A DNA stretch of 64,000 nt from Aquimarina aquimarini (GTDB lineage: Bacteria > Bacteroidota > Bacteroidia > Flavobacteriales > Flavobacteriaceae), in contig NZ_OMKE01000007.1 of assembly GCF_900299535.1 (NCBI RefSeq), forward strand, positions 69,501 through 133,500, given 5' to 3'. Each line of letters starts with the position of its first letter. Position 1 is the first letter of the stretch. A model generated the notes under the pieces. The model did no database searches. It was given only the letters and a program-made list of their open reading frames with translations, and was not told where the DNA came from. The translations under genes and the position numbers were made by a program. Below are positions 36,256 to 43,897 of this stretch, piece by piece.

Positions 36256-37596
36256 ATGAAATTTATTGATACAATAAAAAACATTTGGAAAATCGAAGAA
36301 CTAAAAAATAGAATCTTAGTAACACTTGGATTGCTATTGGTATATCGATTAGGAGCACAAGTTGTACTTCCAGGAATAGATGCTTCGAAGTTAGCAAGTT
36401 TAGGATCTCAAACCCAAGATGGTTTGTTGGGATTACTTAATGCATTTACAGGAGGAGCGTTTGCTAATGCTTCTGTGTTTGCACTAGGTATTATGCCGTA
36501 TATATCTGCATCCATTGTGGTGCAGTTGATGGGTATCGCAATTCCTTATTTGCAAAAACTACAAAAAGAAGGAGAAAGTGGTAGAAAAAAGATCAACCAA
36601 ATTACGCGTTGGTTAACTATTGCTATTACCTTGATTCAAGGTCCTGGATATATCTATAATTTGTTTGCAACACTTCCTGCATCGGCATTTAGTACTGAGA
36701 TAAGTCAAACTGTTTTTGTTGTATCTTCTGTAATCATTATATCTACAGGTTGTATTTTTGCAATGTGGTTAGGTGAAAAAATTACGGATAAAGGTATTGG
36801 TAACGGTATATCTCTATTAATTATGGTAGGTATTATAGCAACGTTGCCACAATCATTCGTACAAAACTTTTCTTCTAGAGTATCAGGAGAAGGGGGAGAT
36901 ATGATTATGGTATTGATAGAATTAGTAATATGGTTTGTTATAATATTAGCATCGGTATTATTAGTTATGGCAGTGCGCCAAATACCAGTACAATATGCTA
37001 GACGAACTGCAGGTGGAGGATACGAAAAAAATGTTTTCGGTTCTCGCCAGTATATTCCATTAAAACTAAATGCTTCAGGTGTTATGCCAATTATTTTTGC
37101 GCAAGCAATAATGTTTGTACCAGTAGCAGTTGCAGGTCTTTCAGATTCTGAAACTTCTCAAGGAGTAGTGGCAGCATTTAGTGATATTTTTGGATTTTGG
37201 TATAATTTGGTATTTGCTTTGTTGATTATCATATTTACTTATTTCTATACTGCAATTACGGTGCCTACAAATAAAATGGCAGACGATTTAAAACGTAGTG
37301 GAGGTTTTATTCCAGGAATTCGTCCAGGAAGTGAAACATCTGAATATTTGGATAAAATAATGTCTCAGATTACATTGCCAGGATCTATTTTCTTGGCCTT
37401 AATAGCTATATTTCCTGCAATTGCAGTAAAGCTATTAAATGTTCAGCAAGGTTGGGCATTGTTCTTTGGTGGAACTTCTCTGCTAATTATGGTAGGAGTT
37501 GCTATCGATACAATGCAGCAAGTTAATTCTTACCTTCTAAACAGACATTACGACGGATTAATGAAAACGGGTAAAAACCGAAAAGCAGTAGCATAA
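36256..37596 (+). CDS. secY: Preprotein translocase subunit SecY
   Basis: 446 residues with about ten transmembrane segments. [19 protein letters not shown] is TM1 and start of the plug region, [17 protein letters not shown] is TM2, [13 protein letters not shown] is in a cytoplasmic loop, [15 protein letters not shown] is TM7, and [10 protein letters not shown] is the loop before TM9. Forms the membrane channel with SecE and SecG. Its stop overlaps the infA start by one base. No adk or map gene follows it. Confidence 0.98.
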
Positions 37597-37811
37597 TGGC
37601 AAAACAACCAGCAATAGAACAAGACGGAAGTATAATTGAAGCATTATCAAATGCAATGTTCCGTGTAGAACTAGAAAATGGTCACGTAGTGACAGCACAT
37701 ATATCTGGTAAAATGCGTATGCATTACATCAAATTATTGCCAGGAGATAAGGTGAAGTTAGAAATGAGTCCTTATGATTTGACCAAGGCTCGTATAACAT
37801 ATAGATACTAA
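37596..37811 (+). CDS. infA: Translation initiation factor IF-1
   Basis: 71 residues, single OB fold. [41 protein letters not shown] and [24 protein letters not shown] are diagnostic. Coupled to secY by a one-base overlap. The 119-nt spacer after it contains a second promoter. Confidence 0.98.
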
Positions 37812-37825
37812 ATAAATTAAGAATA

Positions 37826-37855
37826 TTGTATTTTAAGATTTTTTGTGTACTTTTG
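37826..37855 (+). promoter_or_regulatory. Internal promoter before rpmJ
   Basis: TTG at 37826-37828, a 19-bp spacer and TACTTTTG at 37848-37855 give the same spacing as the rpsL promoter. It would drive rpmJ-rpsM-rpsK-rpsD-rpoA-rplQ separately from the upstream genes. A 9-bp inverted repeat AAGATTTTT (37835-37843) / AAAAATCTT (37863-37871) brackets the -7 box and could be an operator. Confidence 0.7.
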
Positions 37856-37886
37856 CAGGCCGAAAAATCTTGTTACTGATTTCGTT

Positions 37887-37912
37887 CATAAAGCACAAAA
37901 ATGTGTTTTATG
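37887..37912 (+). promoter_or_regulatory. 11-bp hairpin in the rpmJ leader
   Basis: CATAAAGCACA (37887-37897) pairs with TGTGTTTTATG (37902-37912) around an AAAA tetraloop, with one G-U pair. It would lie about 25 nt into a transcript from the internal promoter and ends 18 nt before the rpmJ start codon. Confidence 0.55.
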
Positions 37913-37930
37913 GATATAAAAAACAAAAAG

Positions 37931-38047
37931 ATGAAAGTTAGAGCATCAATAAAAAAGAGAAGTGCCGAGTGCAAGATTGTGCGTAGAAAAGGCCGTCTTT
38001 ACGTAATTAATAAAAAGAATCCTAGATTTAAACAAAGACAAGGGTAA
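37931..38047 (+). CDS. rpmJ: 50S ribosomal protein L36, zinc-free form
   Basis: 38 residues, read directly from the spacer: [20 protein letters not shown] followed by [18 protein letters not shown]. Zinc-binding L36 has three Cys and a His; here only one Cys remains, so this is the zinc-independent type. The stop is 2 nt before rpsM, and the order infA-rpmJ-rpsM is conserved in bacteria. Confidence 0.97.
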
Positions 38048-38049
38048 TT

Positions 38050-38424
38050 ATGGCAAGAATTGCAGGGGTAGATATACCTAAACAAAAGCGAGGAGTTATA
38101 GCGTTAACCTATATCTTCGGAATTGGTAGAAGTAGAGCTAAAGAAATTTTAGAAACTGCCAAAGTAGATGATAGTATAAAAGTTTCTGATTGGGATGATG
38201 ACCAAATTGGTCGCATTCGTGAAGCCGTTGGAGCCTATACCATTGAAGGAGAATTACGTTCTGAAGTACAGTTAAATATTAAGCGTCTTATGGATATAGG
38301 ATGCTATAGAGGTATACGTCACAGAGCTGGTTTACCGCTAAGAGGACAACGTACTAAGAATAACTCTAGAACACGTAAAGGAAGAAGAAAAACAGTTGCT
38401 AACAAGAAAAAAGCGACTAAATAA
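38050..38424 (+). CDS. rpsM: 30S ribosomal protein S13
   Basis: 124 residues. [26 protein letters not shown] with the helix-two-turn-helix, [28 protein letters not shown] and a Lys-rich tail. It contacts the P-site tRNA and the 50S subunit. Confidence 0.98.
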
Positions 38425-38432
38425 TAAGTAGT

Positions 38433-38816
38433 ATGGCAAAGTCAACTTCAAAAAAACGTAAAGTAATTGTTGAATCTGTAGGAGAAGCGCATGTAACTGC
38501 TTCTTTTAACAACATTATTGTGTCGTTAACAAACAAAAAAGGAGACGTTATTTCTTGGTCTTCTGCTGGTAAAATGGGATTTAGAGGTTCTAAAAAGAAC
38601 ACTCCTTATGCTGCCCAATTAGCTGCAGAAGATGCTGCTAAGGTTGCAATCGAAGCAGGTCTTAAGAAAGTAAAAGTATACGTTAAAGGTCCTGGTAACG
38701 GTAGAGAATCAGCGATACGTTCTATTCACAATTCTGGAATAGAAGTTTCTGAAATCATCGATGTTACGCCAATGCCGCATAATGGATGTCGTCCTCCAAA
38801 AAGACGTAGAGTTTAA
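38433..38816 (+). CDS. rpsK: 30S ribosomal protein S11
   Basis: 127 residues. ATFNNTIVSLTN-type segment ([40 protein letters not shown]) and [42 protein letters not shown] are diagnostic. Platform protein near the mRNA exit. A hairpin with a T5 tract follows 5 nt after the stop. Confidence 0.98.
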
Positions 38817-38821
38817 TTCTA

Positions 38822-38848
38822 ATCCTGAACTTGTTTCAGGATCTTTTT
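38822..38848 (+). terminator. Terminator-like hairpin between rpsK and rpsD
   Basis: ATCCTGAA (38822-38829) pairs perfectly with TTCAGGAT (38835-38842) over a 5-base loop, followed by CTTTTT. It could partially stop transcription or mark a processed 3' end before rpsD. Confidence 0.55.
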
Positions 38849-38874
38849 ACATATAATAAGTAAATCTAATTGAT

Positions 38875-38924
38875 GAGAGATTAAGATTATCGAAGGAAAG
38901 AGACCTTAATTCATAATCACTCTC
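38875..38924 (+). promoter_or_regulatory. Three-tier nested stem before rpsD
   Basis: GAGAG (38875-38879) pairs with CTCTC (38920-38924), GATTAT (38885-38890) with ATAATC (38913-38918), and AAGG (38893-38896) with CCTT (38904-38907). All three are perfect and coaxially nested, with asymmetric internal loops. It ends 19 nt before the rpsD start and could be an S4-binding leader; S4 is a known autogenous repressor in other phyla. Confidence 0.55.
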
Positions 38925-38943
38925 AGTAACTAAATTATTAATA

Positions 38944-39549
38944 ATGGCAAGATATACTGGTCCAAAAACTAAAATCGCTCGTAAATTTGGTGAAGCGATA
39001 TTCGGAGATGATAAATCATTCGAAAAAAGAAATTACCCTCCAGGTCAACATGGAAACAATAGACGTAGAGGGAAAAAAAGTGAGTACGCTATCCAGTTAA
39101 TGGAAAAGCAAAAAGCAAAATATACATATGGTGTTCTTGAGCGTCAGTTCCGTAATATGTTTGAAAAGGCAACTCGTGCACAGGGTATTACTGGTGAGGT
39201 GTTACTTCAGCTTTGTGAATCTCGTTTAGATAACGTGGTTTTCAGAATGGGATTGTCTAATTCTCGTAGAGGTGCAAGACAATTAGTTTCTCATAGACAT
39301 ATAACTGTAAATGGAGAGCAAGTAAATATTCCTTCATATCAGTTAAGAGCAGGAGATGTTGTTGGAGTAAGAGAGAAATCAAAATCATTAGAAGTAATTC
39401 AAAATTCATTGGCTAACAATAGTAAGGTATATGAATGGATTACATTTAATAATGATACAAAACAGGGGACATTTGTTTCTGTTCCGGCTAGAATTCAAAT
39501 TCCGGAAAATATTAATGAACAATTCATTGTCGAATTATACTCTAAGTAA
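38944..39549 (+). CDS. rpsD: 30S ribosomal protein S4
   Basis: 201 residues. [20 protein letters not shown] start, [41 protein letters not shown], and the S4 domain [49 protein letters not shown]. The N-terminus lacks a Cys zinc cluster. Primary binder of the 16S 5' domain. Confidence 0.98.
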
Positions 39550-39573
39550 TAACGCTAAAGAAGAAACAATAAC

Positions 39574-40566
39574 ATGGCAATATTAAATTTTCAGAAGCCC
39601 GATAAAGTTATCATGATTGACTCTACAGAGTTCAATGGTAAATTTGAGTTTAGACCATTAGAACCTGGATATGGATTAACAGTGGGTAACGCTTTACGAA
39701 GAGTTTTGCTATCTTCTTTAGAGGGATTTGCTATAACTTCTCTTAGAATAGAAGGTGTAGATCACGAGTTCTCTGCAATATCTGGTGTAGTAGAGGATGT
39801 AACAGAAATTATCTTAAATCTTAAGCAAGTACGTTTCAAGCGTCAGATTGAAGATATAGATAATGAGTCTGTGACAATTTCTATTTCTGGACAGGAGCAA
39901 TTAACAGCTGGAGATTTTCAGAAATTTATTTCTGGATTTCAAGTGTTAAATCCTGATCTGGTTATCTGTAATATGGATAAAAAAGTAGCACTTAATCTTG
40001 AGGTTACCATAGAAAAAGGTAGAGGTTATGTTCCTGCTGAGGAAAACAAAAAAGCGAATGCTCCTATTGGTACCATTTTTACAGATTCTATTTACACTCC
40101 TATTAAGAATGTAAAGTATAGTATAGAGAATTATCGTGTAGAGCAAAAAACAGATTACGAAAAATTAGTTTTCGAAATTGTAACTGATGGATCAATTCAT
40201 CCAAAAGATGCATTGACAGAAGCAGCTAAGATTTTAATACATCACTTTATGTTATTCTCTGATGAGCGTATTACGCTTGAAGCTGATGAAATAGCACAGA
40301 CTGAGACTTATGATGAAGAATCACTTCATATGAGACAGTTGTTGAAAACAAAGTTGATCGACATGGATCTTTCTGTAAGAGCGTTGAACTGTTTAAAAGC
40401 TGCAGAAGTAGATACATTAGGAGACCTTGTATCTTACAATAAAAATGATTTGATGAAGTTCCGTAATTTTGGTAAGAAATCTTTGACAGAGCTAGAAGAA
40501 TTAGTGAACGTTAAAGGGCTTAACTTTGGAATGGATCTTTCAAAATACAAATTAGATAAAGACTAA
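39574..40566 (+). CDS. rpoA: RNA polymerase alpha subunit
   Basis: 330 residues. The N-terminal domain (about 1-235) has [44 protein letters not shown] and [20 protein letters not shown]; a linker precedes the C-terminal domain with [25 protein letters not shown]-type sequence and [15 protein letters not shown]. Forms the dimer that scaffolds polymerase assembly. It starts 24 nt after rpsD. Confidence 0.98.
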
Positions 40567-40569
40567 TTT

Positions 40570-40611
40570 CATCATAATTTGCTCCCCAAAGTGGGTAGAT
40601 GCAAGATGATG
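40570..40611 (+). promoter_or_regulatory. Three-tier nested stem before rplQ
   Basis: CATCAT (40570-40575) pairs with ATGATG (40606-40611), TTGC (40579-40582) with GCAA (40601-40604), and CCCA (40585-40588) with TGGG (40592-40595) over an AAG loop. All arms are perfect and nested. The element fills most of the 61-nt spacer between rpoA and rplQ and has no U-run, so it is not a simple terminator. Confidence 0.55.
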
Positions 40612-40627
40612 ATTAAATTAAAATGTC

Positions 40628-41107
40628 ATGAGACACGGAAAAAAAGTAAATCACCTAGGTAGAAAAACAGCTCATCGTAAAGCAATGCTTGCGAATATGG
40701 CTTGTTCCCTAATTGAGCACAAAAGAATTAATACAACTGTAGCAAAGGCAAAAGCTCTTAAGCAGTTTGTTGAACCTTTGGTGACAAAATCTAAAGATGA
40801 TACAACTCATAATAGACGAATTGTATTCAGTAAATTGCGTAATAAATATGCAGTAACTGAATTGTTTAGAGAAGTAGCATCTAAGGTTGGTGATAGACCA
40901 GGTGGGTACACTAGAATTATAAAGCTAGGTAATCGACTAGGAGATAATGCTGATATGGCAATGATCGAATTAGTAGATTATAATGAATTATATAACGCTG
41001 GTAAGCCTGCTAAGAAAAAAGCAAGGAGAAGAGGTAAAGGAGGAAAGAAAACTGAATCTGCACCTGTTGCGCCAGCAGCTGAAACCACTAGTTCTGAAGA
41101 AGAATAA
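40628..41107 (+). CDS. rplQ: 50S ribosomal protein L17
   Basis: 159 residues. [37 protein letters not shown] and [31 protein letters not shown] are diagnostic. The last 40 residues are a basic then Ala/Pro/Glu-rich tail ([20 protein letters not shown]), so the protein is about 30 residues longer than in E. coli. Last gene of the superoperon, followed by a terminator. Confidence 0.97.
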
Positions 41108-41140
41108 ATGGGAAATGCGAATCGCACATAATAATGTAAA

Positions 41141-41172
41141 GGATAGACGTTCATCGTTTATCCTTTTTTTTT
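41141..41172 (+). terminator. Terminator of the ribosomal superoperon
   Basis: GGATAGACG (41141-41149) pairs with CGTTTATCC (41155-41163), one G-U pair, followed by nine T residues. Placed 33 nt after the rplQ stop. Confidence 0.88.
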
Positions 41173-41223
41173 GATAGATTTTAAAAAAAATCTAGATTAA
41201 AAGACTTTAAAAAAATAAATATC

Positions 41224-41270
41224 AAATTGAAAAAGGGGAGGTGGATATAGCGGGGCTATTATATCAATTT
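41224..41270 (+). promoter_or_regulatory. Possible structured leader of carA
   Basis: AAATT (41224-41228) pairs with AATTT (41266-41270), and GATATAG (41244-41250) with CTAT-T-ATATC (41256-41265, one bulged T). The 5' side of the internal loop is the purine tract GAAAAAGGGGAGGTG. It lies between the rplQ terminator and the carA start. No pyrimidine-responsive motif was recognised. Confidence 0.35.
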
Positions 41271-41303
41271 CGCCAAATTATAACAAACAATTATTTAAAA
41301 CAG

Positions 41304-42413
41304 ATGAAATATCAATCTCGGAAAAAAGCAATTCTTTTATTGGCAGATGGTACAATTTTCCATGGCAAAGCTGTAGGAAGAGAAGGGAGCGCCTTTGGTG
41401 AAGTGTGTTTTAATACCGGTATGACAGGGTATCAAGAAATCTTTACTGACCCATCATATTATGGTCAGTTAATGGTAACAACAAATGCTCATATTGGTAA
41501 CTATGGAACCAATAAGCATGAAATAGAATCAGACTCTATAAAAATAGCAGGTTTGATAGTCAAAAATTTTAGTTATGACTATTCTAGAGATCTTGCAGAT
41601 AGTTCTCTGCAAGAGTTTTTAGAAAAACATAATCTTCTTGCAATTTCTGATGTTGATACTAGGGCATTGGTAAGTTATATTAGAGATAATGGAGCCATGA
41701 ATGCTGTTATCTCAACAGAAATTGACGATATCGATAAATTAAAAGAAAAATTGGCTGCTGTACCTGATATGAATGGTTTGGAATTGGCATCAAAAGTATC
41801 TACTAAAGAGCCATATTTTGTAGGAGATCCTAATGCAACCTATAAAATTTCAGCTTTAGATATCGGAATTAAGAAAAATATTTTGCGCAATCTGGCAAAA
41901 AGAGATGCTTATATAAAAGTGTTTCCTTATGATACTACTTTTGCAGAGATGAGCGAATGGAATCCTGATGGTTACTTCTTGTCAAATGGACCTGGAGACC
42001 CAGAGCCTTTAACACAAGCTATTGCAACAGCAAAAGAAATTATAGCAAAAGATTTACCATTATTCGGTATTTGTTTAGGGCATCAGGTGGTAGCATTGGC
42101 TAACGGGATTGGTACTTATAAAATGCATAATGGGCATAGAGGGATTAATCACCCGGTTAAAAATCTGATAACTCAAAAAGGAGAGATAACATCGCAGAAT
42201 CATGGTTTTGCTATACGAAGAGAAGAAACAGAAAAACATCCAGATGTAGAGATTACCCATGTACATCTTAATGATGATACAGTTGCAGGTATAAAAATGA
42301 AAAATAAGAACTGTTTTTCTGTGCAATATCACCCAGAAGCAAGCCCAGGTCCAAATGATTCGACATATCTTTTTGATCAATTTATAGAAAATATAAAAAA
42401 AGCAAAAGCTTAA
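41304..42413 (+). CDS. carA: Carbamoyl-phosphate synthase small subunit
   Basis: 369 residues from the ATG of MKYQSRKKAILLLADG; an in-frame GTG at 41241 would add 21 unrelated residues and lies inside the predicted hairpin. The N-terminal domain has TGMTGYQEIFTDPSYYGQ; the class I amidotransferase domain has SNGPGDPEP, nucleophile Cys257 in GICLGHQ, and His343/Glu345 in QYHPEASPGP. Supplies ammonia from glutamine for carbamoyl phosphate in pyrimidine and arginine synthesis. carB is not nearby. Confidence 0.96.
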   Translation: MKYQSRKKAILLLADGTIFHGKAVGREGSAFGEVCFNTGMTGYQEIFTDPSYYGQLMVTTNAHIGNYGTNKHEIESDSIKIAGLIVKNFSYDYSRDLADSSLQEFLEKHNLLAISDVDTRALVSYIRDNGAMNAVISTEIDDIDKLKEKLAAVPDMNGLELASKVSTKEPYFVGDPNATYKISALDIGIKKNILRNLAKRDAYIKVFPYDTTFAEMSEWNPDGYFLSNGPGDPEPLTQAIATAKEIIAKDLPLFGICLGHQVVALANGIGTYKMHNGHRGINHPVKNLITQKGEITSQNHGFAIRREETEKHPDVEITHVHLNDDTVAGIKMKNKNCFSVQYHPEASPGPNDSTYLFDQFIENIKKAKA

Positions 42414-42513
42414 GGAGGTGCCAGTAGTGTAGTTGTAGAAATTAGAAATGTCTTTTGGTAAGGTTTTGATCTATAACGTTGTAGTTAATAACTTGTTGAG
42501 GATACTGTCATTT

Positions 42514-42535
42514 CTATACTAAATTATAGTTTTTT
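42514..42535 (+). terminator. Weak AT-rich terminator between carA and eno
   Basis: CTATA pairs with TATAG over a 6-base loop, followed by six T residues. The stem has little GC, so read-through is likely. A larger inverted repeat TAGAAATG (42443-42450) / CATTTCTA (42509-42516) partly overlaps it. Confidence 0.3.
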
Positions 42536-42598
42536 GAAAGACGCTAAAAATTACTGGTTTTGTATATTGCAGAGAATTAAAATTATCCAACAAAATAA

Positions 42599-43897
<1,299 letters not shown>

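Follow-up and report, generated by a model that had tools for sequence, protein, structure and literature searches.

An S4-Flavobacteria leader with a probable upstream terminator, and a candidate L17 leader, in the alpha operon of Aquimarina

The stem at 38874–38925, between rpsK and rpsD, is the S4-Flavobacteria ribosomal protein leader, RF03141, a published RNA. Taken as one explanation, an RF03141 leader for S4 feedback and a separate intrinsic terminator upstream of it provide an account of the locus that we hold with considerable confidence. Farther downstream, comparative evidence for a second hairpin (40569–40612) tips the balance slightly toward an alpha operon that, in Flavobacteriaceae, carries two feedback RNAs, the known S4 leader and an undescribed L17 leader.

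The window analyzed here is the whole stretch of 64,000 nt. According to the list of open reading frames, the last base of rpsK is 38816 and the first of rpsD is 38944, which leaves a spacer of 127 nt. The frame upstream of the spacer (38433–38816) is presumably rpsK (S11), as named in the original prediction. The first gene downstream of the leader is rpsD (38944–39549), whose S4 product is 96–98% identical to 11 Aquimarina records. It is followed by the open reading frames 39574–40566 and 40628–41107, which we take, from their sequences, to be rpoA and rplQ (L17), respectively. These four genes, the upstream hairpin, and both leaders lie on the + strand. Past rplQ, a strong terminator-like hairpin with 12 pairs and a T run (41138–41166) is the probable end of the operon. 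Before the gene preceding rpsM, a TACTTTTG box (37848–37855) may serve the upstream unit as a promoter; across the window, such boxes are no commoner than chance.

The stem before rpsD

Both structures of the original prediction, a terminator-like hairpin and a three-tier stem, were located from the sequence and the reading-frame positions where they had been placed (38822–38924). The three tiers, of 5, 6, and 4 bp, are present at 38875–38924: GAGAG/CTCTC pairs 38875–38879 with 38920–38924, GATTAT/ATAATC pairs 38885–38890 with 38913–38918 (P2), and, as originally drawn, AAGG/CCTT pairs 38893–38896 with 38904–38907. The end of the stem, 38924, lies 19 nt before the S4 ATG, exactly as claimed. 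With the outermost T–A pair included, the outer stem P1 has 6 bp (38874–38879 with 38920–38925). Based on folding and covariation, the whole leader (38874–38925) is made up of P1, a 5-nt bulge (38880–38884), and the inner stems. In the register favored below, C38891 is bulged next to P2, 38892–38894 pair with 38910–38912, UUAA is bulged at 38906–38909, and GG (38895–38896) pairs with CC (38904–38905).

Searched against Rfam, the whole window yielded a single match above cut-off, RF03141, at 38885–38918, with 47.9 bits (gathering cut-off, 35.2) and a span of model positions 1–33 of 33. The match stands directly 5' of rpsD, rpoA, and rplQ, and the hairpin covaries: in 127 aligned rows, 7 of 11 pairs show double changes, and pairs of the Rfam structure are held through double changes in 97 cells, compared with 13.9 in shuffles, none of 500 of which reached 97. 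Eckert and Weinberg predicted an S4 motif of Flavobacteria upstream of rpsD, rpoA, and rplQ in 2020, and their Table 1 rates it a “likely candidate” (PMC7247131). From its name, lineage, and genes, we take this motif to be the origin of RF03141. The three-tier stem is therefore already known, being both published and in Rfam. The original prediction had seen in it a possible independent solution, different from the S4 leaders of Firmicutes and gammaproteobacteria. It was right about the kind of element, and the same difference is drawn in PMC7247131, whose account of the motif reports no meaningful similarity to rRNA, to the S4 leader of Bacteroidia, or to those described earlier; it was wrong about novelty, since the leader had been predicted in 2020.

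RF03141 was matched in 119 of 149 genomes of the family, each from a different genus, in 33 of 37 Aquimarina genomes, and in 31 of 196 genomes of a sample of the order (30 of the 31 in the own family), versus 0 of 14 control genomes. Spacers were taken from the 118 matching family genomes other than our own. The family and own-genus sets also hold 34 genomes without a match, 28 of which have an S4 gene (25 from other genera and three from Aquimarina), and addition of the 25 to the 118 gave a genus set of 143 loci. By a sequence-pattern rule, the leader core stands directly before rpsD in 137 of these 143 genera, including 19 of the 25 RF03141-negative ones. Pair 8–27 is A–U instead of G–C in 17 of the 137, all of them among these 19. 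Under the same rule, no core was found in six genera (L272 and L274–L278), with rpsK–rpsD spacers of 14 to 48 nt; their genomes measure 1.3 to 2.2 Mb, and the rplQ hairpin pattern described later is likewise absent from them. One RF03141-negative Aquimarina genome (L269), with a 51-nt spacer devoid of the core, was excluded from the counts. All core counts rest on the final anchoring, in which the anchor of L264 was set by hand owing to a hairpin inserted in the loop. The apical loop of this leader (39 nt) holds the inserted hairpin, and the conserved core is retained.

The Rfam model, with 33 positions, omits the outer tier. Enough upstream sequence to assess this tier was available at 119 of the 137 loci, and in every one of these 119 genera the pairing between the own flanks on the 5' and 3' sides is stronger than the average over 40 swaps, with mean energies of −8.1 (own) versus −4.3 kcal/mol (swapped; Wilcoxon p 3e-21, relatedness being ignored here as in the pair counts). 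The sequence of the outer helix varies widely among lineages. In alignment A1 (127 rows), double changes occur at all five outer pairs, and 77.6% of the cells are paired, a fraction held down by variation of the register between lineages.

The inner tier can be drawn in two registers, the Rfam register, with AAGG paired with CCUU and AAUU bulged, and a shifted one, with UUAA bulged. In A1, 7 of 127 rows disrupt the Rfam pair 9–22, and none shows a two-sided change of it, whereas the alternative pair 9–26 is disrupted in 0 of 127 and shows a two-sided change in two rows. The order sample contributed 26 loci, of which many belong to a single genus and a few overlap with the genomes of the genus set; here, 9–22 is disrupted in 17 and 9–26 in none. 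Some variants, among them five Winogradskyella records, have lost the C bulge, and their helix continues through the alternative pairs. RNAalifold run on A1 picks the Rfam register, and the neighboring A–U pair is nearly invariant in both. Based on these substitution patterns, we clearly favor the shifted register. The 5-bp and 6-bp tiers of the original prediction are supported, and its drawing of the inner 4-bp tier corresponds to the register with less support. Conservation of the stem arms had been named beforehand as one point on which the prediction could fail; the arms are kept and covary in relatives. A model built with the outer stem and the shifted register matches 134 of 149 family genomes, which is no independent test because the same genomes supplied its 127 training rows, without exception.

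AAGTA (about 38860–38864, 5' of the outer stem) and TATACT (38953–38958, rpsD codons 4–5) co-occur: TATACT is found in 64 of 69 genera with AAGTA versus 19 of 68 without, and a tree-based likelihood test on 136 genera favors linked change (LRT 29.3, p 7e-6). Complementary stretches are longer for own partners than for partners drawn from another codon class (p 3e-10), a gain that comes from the TATACT class alone, with none in the TATACA and TACACA classes. Flank–codon energies were no better than those after swapping, being lower in 32 of 76 cases (p 0.09). Long-range pairing of AAGTA with rpsD codons 4–5 is not established; the co-occurrence comes with no compensating change in the other codon classes.

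The hairpin after rpsK and the layout of the spacer

The upstream hairpin starts 5 nt past the rpsK stop and is formed by the arms ATCCTGAA (38822–38829) and TTCAGGAT (38835–38842), with the loop CTTGT (38830–38834) between them and the tail CTTTTT (38843–38848) behind. The perfect 8-bp hairpin with CTTTTT that had been announced between rpsK and rpsD is thus there, at 38822–38848; its distance to the stem, put at some 30 nt, was near the mark, at 32 nt from the end of the hairpin stem and 26 nt from the T run. Folded alone, the hairpin reaches −9.0 kcal/mol (z −3.12), and 4 of 200 shuffles were as good. A consensus scan found five terminator-like sites in 37400–42700, this hairpin included, compared with 2.1 in shuffles. 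It has the makeup of an intrinsic terminator, that is, a hairpin plus T run past a stop codon, and, as judged from sequence, it probably is one.

Conservation within the genus was assessed in 32 of the 37 Aquimarina genomes, namely 30 of the 33 with RF03141 matches (own genome included) and two of the four without. A hairpin with a T tail is present in 26 of the 32 (0.5 expected from shuffles). The kind seen after rpsK occurs in 24 of the 32, in 23 of these no more than 11 nt from the rpsK stop. The stem varies across the genus and the T tail is kept, as in ATCCTGAA/TTCAGGAT, ATCCCGAA/TTCGGGAT, and CCGGAAGCT/AGTTTCCGG. Two genomes (L226 and L262) have T-tailed hairpins of other kinds; in L226, the arms of the post-rpsK hairpin are parted by a longer insert.

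Hairpins of the type TCCYGAA..TTCRGGA occur at seven places in the genome, and the six others have T tracts and lie 25 to 141 nt past an open frame with a length of 80 codons or more. The idea that the hairpin is a dispersed repeat was rejected, the 19-nt core occurring once in the genome, TGAACTWGTTTCA at two places, and the wider type at seven.

Spacers of other genera differ in layout. In 80 of the 137 genera with a core, the spacer is shorter than 110 nt and contains neither hairpin nor promoter box; a terminator is therefore not a general part of the leader system. The box searched for was TAnnTTTG, given as the sigma-A consensus in the account of Flavobacterium psychrophilum in PMC9723704. 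Spacers of at least 150 nt are found in 44 of the 137 genera, and 39 of these contain TAnnTTTG (3.7 expected). A hairpin is present in 14 of the 44 under a stricter rule (1.1 expected) and in 28 of the 44 under a relaxed rule (0.9 expected), the thresholds of which were loosened after the sequences were seen; under the latter, a box lies 3' of the hairpin in 26 of the 44. The 13 genera with intermediate spacers yielded six hairpins and one box under the stricter rule and one of each under the relaxed rule. The shuffles behind these expectations preserve base composition only. As many as 37 of the 40 boxes begin 32 to 41 nt upstream of the assumed start of the outer stem. Since TAnnTTTG occurs 97 times in the whole window versus 96 expected, single boxes prove nothing, and it is the excess in the spacers that counts. 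Many long-spacer genera have the order terminator, promoter box, leader, and a transcript that begins with the leader is probable in many genera. The original idea of a stop signal and a separate leader finds support in these layouts of relatives.

In Aquimarina, TAnnTTTG precedes the leader in 0 of 32 genomes (1.4 expected). This, together with the shortness of the T run, speaks for the foremost alternative, in which the hairpin is a 3'-end stabilizer or processing site within one continuous transcript. We consider that possible, at clearly lower odds than termination: the T tail is conserved though the stem changes, the six other hairpins of the type have T tracts beyond open frames, and long-spacer genera show a hairpin and then a box at the same place. 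If the hairpin is a separate terminator, the leader belongs to the downstream unit. The transcript ending with rpsK would then stop, in part or entirely, at 38822–38848. As the own genus has no canonical box, transcription of rpsD there probably relies on polymerases that read through a leaky terminator or on a noncanonical promoter.

Feedback by S4 and its alternatives

Position, Rfam membership, conservation, covariation, and the layouts in relatives are what the sequences show; a role in translation, like S4 binding, termination, and readthrough, is inferred. Most likely, free S4 that accumulates would bind the bulged stem, and bound S4 would block ribosome loading at the unstructured start region, 19 nt downstream. 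Such a block would repress rpsD and perhaps rpoA and rplQ as well. Because Bacteroidia ribosomes, as described in PMC9976891, do not recognize Shine–Dalgarno sequences, covering an unstructured start region is a plausible route.

That S4 is the ligand is a prediction by analogy. In Table 1 of PMC7247131, S4 is assigned as “Prior,” the authors stress that confidence in such ligand predictions varies, and, by their description, the motif does not resemble the rRNA site of S4. The stem might thus respond to a different product encoded in the operon, or to no protein, which seems unlikely considering that the core stands directly before rpsD throughout most of the genus set (137 of 143) and that, in other phyla, leaders with S4 as their proven ligand exist (PMC7247131). 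Even less probable is that the S4 leader acts on transcription, by attenuation or antitermination, instead of translation. S4 is described as an antitermination factor of E. coli in PMC10931766, but the spacer sequence contains neither a T run nor a terminator hairpin between the leader and rpsD, and its sole terminator-like site is 5' of the leader and thus transcribed first. Finally, a chance fold can be dismissed: folding energies are unremarkable for the stem alone (z −1.45, 16 of 200 shuffles as good) and for the whole rpsK–rpsD spacer (z −1.09, 27 of 200), yet the leader is placed beyond chance by its Rfam score, its covariation in relatives, and its place before rpsD, not by folding energy.

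A candidate leader before rplQ and comparison with known systems

The second hairpin (40569–40612) ends 15 nt before the rplQ ATG. Its outer stem pairs 40569–40575 with 40606–40612, its inner stem pairs 40578–40582 with 40601–40605, and the tip is variable. Among relatives, it is characterized by nearly invariant inner arms, TTTGC/GCAAG, by two bulged nucleotides on the 5' side, and by covariation of the outer stem. This pattern was found in 87 of 108 loci, and two of the 21 pattern-negative loci (L266 and L267) show a close variant. In 62 rows, there are 40 double-change cells versus 12.9 in shuffles (0 of 500 reached 40) and at most 19 when the arms were slid; the inner pairs are uninformative either way because they are nearly invariant. 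A model from the 62 rows matches 87 of 149 family genomes, some of which are sources of training rows, with one match each. On the same strand and contig, 83 of these 87 matches lie 1,680 to 1,860 nt downstream of the S4 leader; of the others, one is found on a different contig, and for three there is no S4-leader match as a reference. In a sample of the class, 10 of 395 genomes were matched, nine of them in the family. The hairpin stands directly before rplQ in 38 of 39 loci, the exception being a marginal match outside the family. The Rfam search of 40480–40720 gave seven weak matches, all under the cut-offs, and among 20 related loci only RF03141 reached its cut-off, in 15. As a conserved, covarying RNA directly 5' of rplQ, the hairpin is of the L17-leader kind, and we regard it as a candidate new L17 leader.

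A likeness of the rplQ hairpin to rRNA was considered and is not supported: TTTGCTC and GCAAGAT are absent from E. coli 23S rRNA, which also offered no close helix and was the sole rRNA compared, the own assembly having yielded no 23S match. In five Salegentibacter records (L156, L159, L160, L162, and L177), another hairpin, TTTTCC...GGGAAAA, occupies the same place before rplQ.

The L17 leader is listed for Actino- and Proteobacteria only in the tabulation of PMC7247131, and the L17 downstream element is reported from Lactobacillales and Listeria (PMC2864571). A Bacteroidota L17 leader did not appear among the literature matches listed for rplQ, which are in part dominated by eukaryotic RPL17 papers and leave subscription journals mostly outside, so that absence from print is not proven. 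The 64 structured 5' regions described for F. psychrophilum (PMC9723704) could include the S4 and rplQ leaders. S4 stays a possible ligand of the rplQ hairpin, since a second S4 site before rplQ has been proposed for E. coli, without strong evidence according to PMC10931766.

If both feedback RNAs are real, the operon would be cut into modules, each with its own protein sensor, and the break between rpsK and rpsD would be a terminator, in many genera accompanied by a promoter. The stem, as a published leader, answers no open question. What is gained is an improved RF03141 structure, with outer stem and shifted register, and evidence that, of the sampled genera without an Rfam match, most nevertheless carry the leader. 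To this are added a comparative view of one operon gaining or losing a terminator and promoter before its leader and, in the same family, a second leader for which the evidence is strong but which is still a candidate, with L17 as its presumed partner.

The stem shares sequence, core structure, place before rpsD–rpoA–rplQ, and lineage with RF03141 as presented in PMC7247131. It differs from the 33-position Rfam model, with which it was compared, in that the model lacks the outer stem and pairs AAGG with CCUU, whereas the present comparison of relatives supports the outer stem and favors the shifted register. The gammaproteobacterial S4 leader is a pseudoknot at rpsM, and that of Bacillus lies before rpsD. 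Feedback of S4 on its own operon, described for both in PMC10931766 and PMC7247131 and predicted here, is the shared trait; the structures differ, and no Rfam family besides RF03141 exceeds its cut-off in the window. The rplQ hairpin matches no Rfam family at that family's cut-off. As reported, the L17 downstream element (RF01708), which lies 3' of the gene, and the L17 leader listed for Actino- and Proteobacteria belong to other lineages; like the rplQ hairpin, both are structured RNAs beside rplQ.
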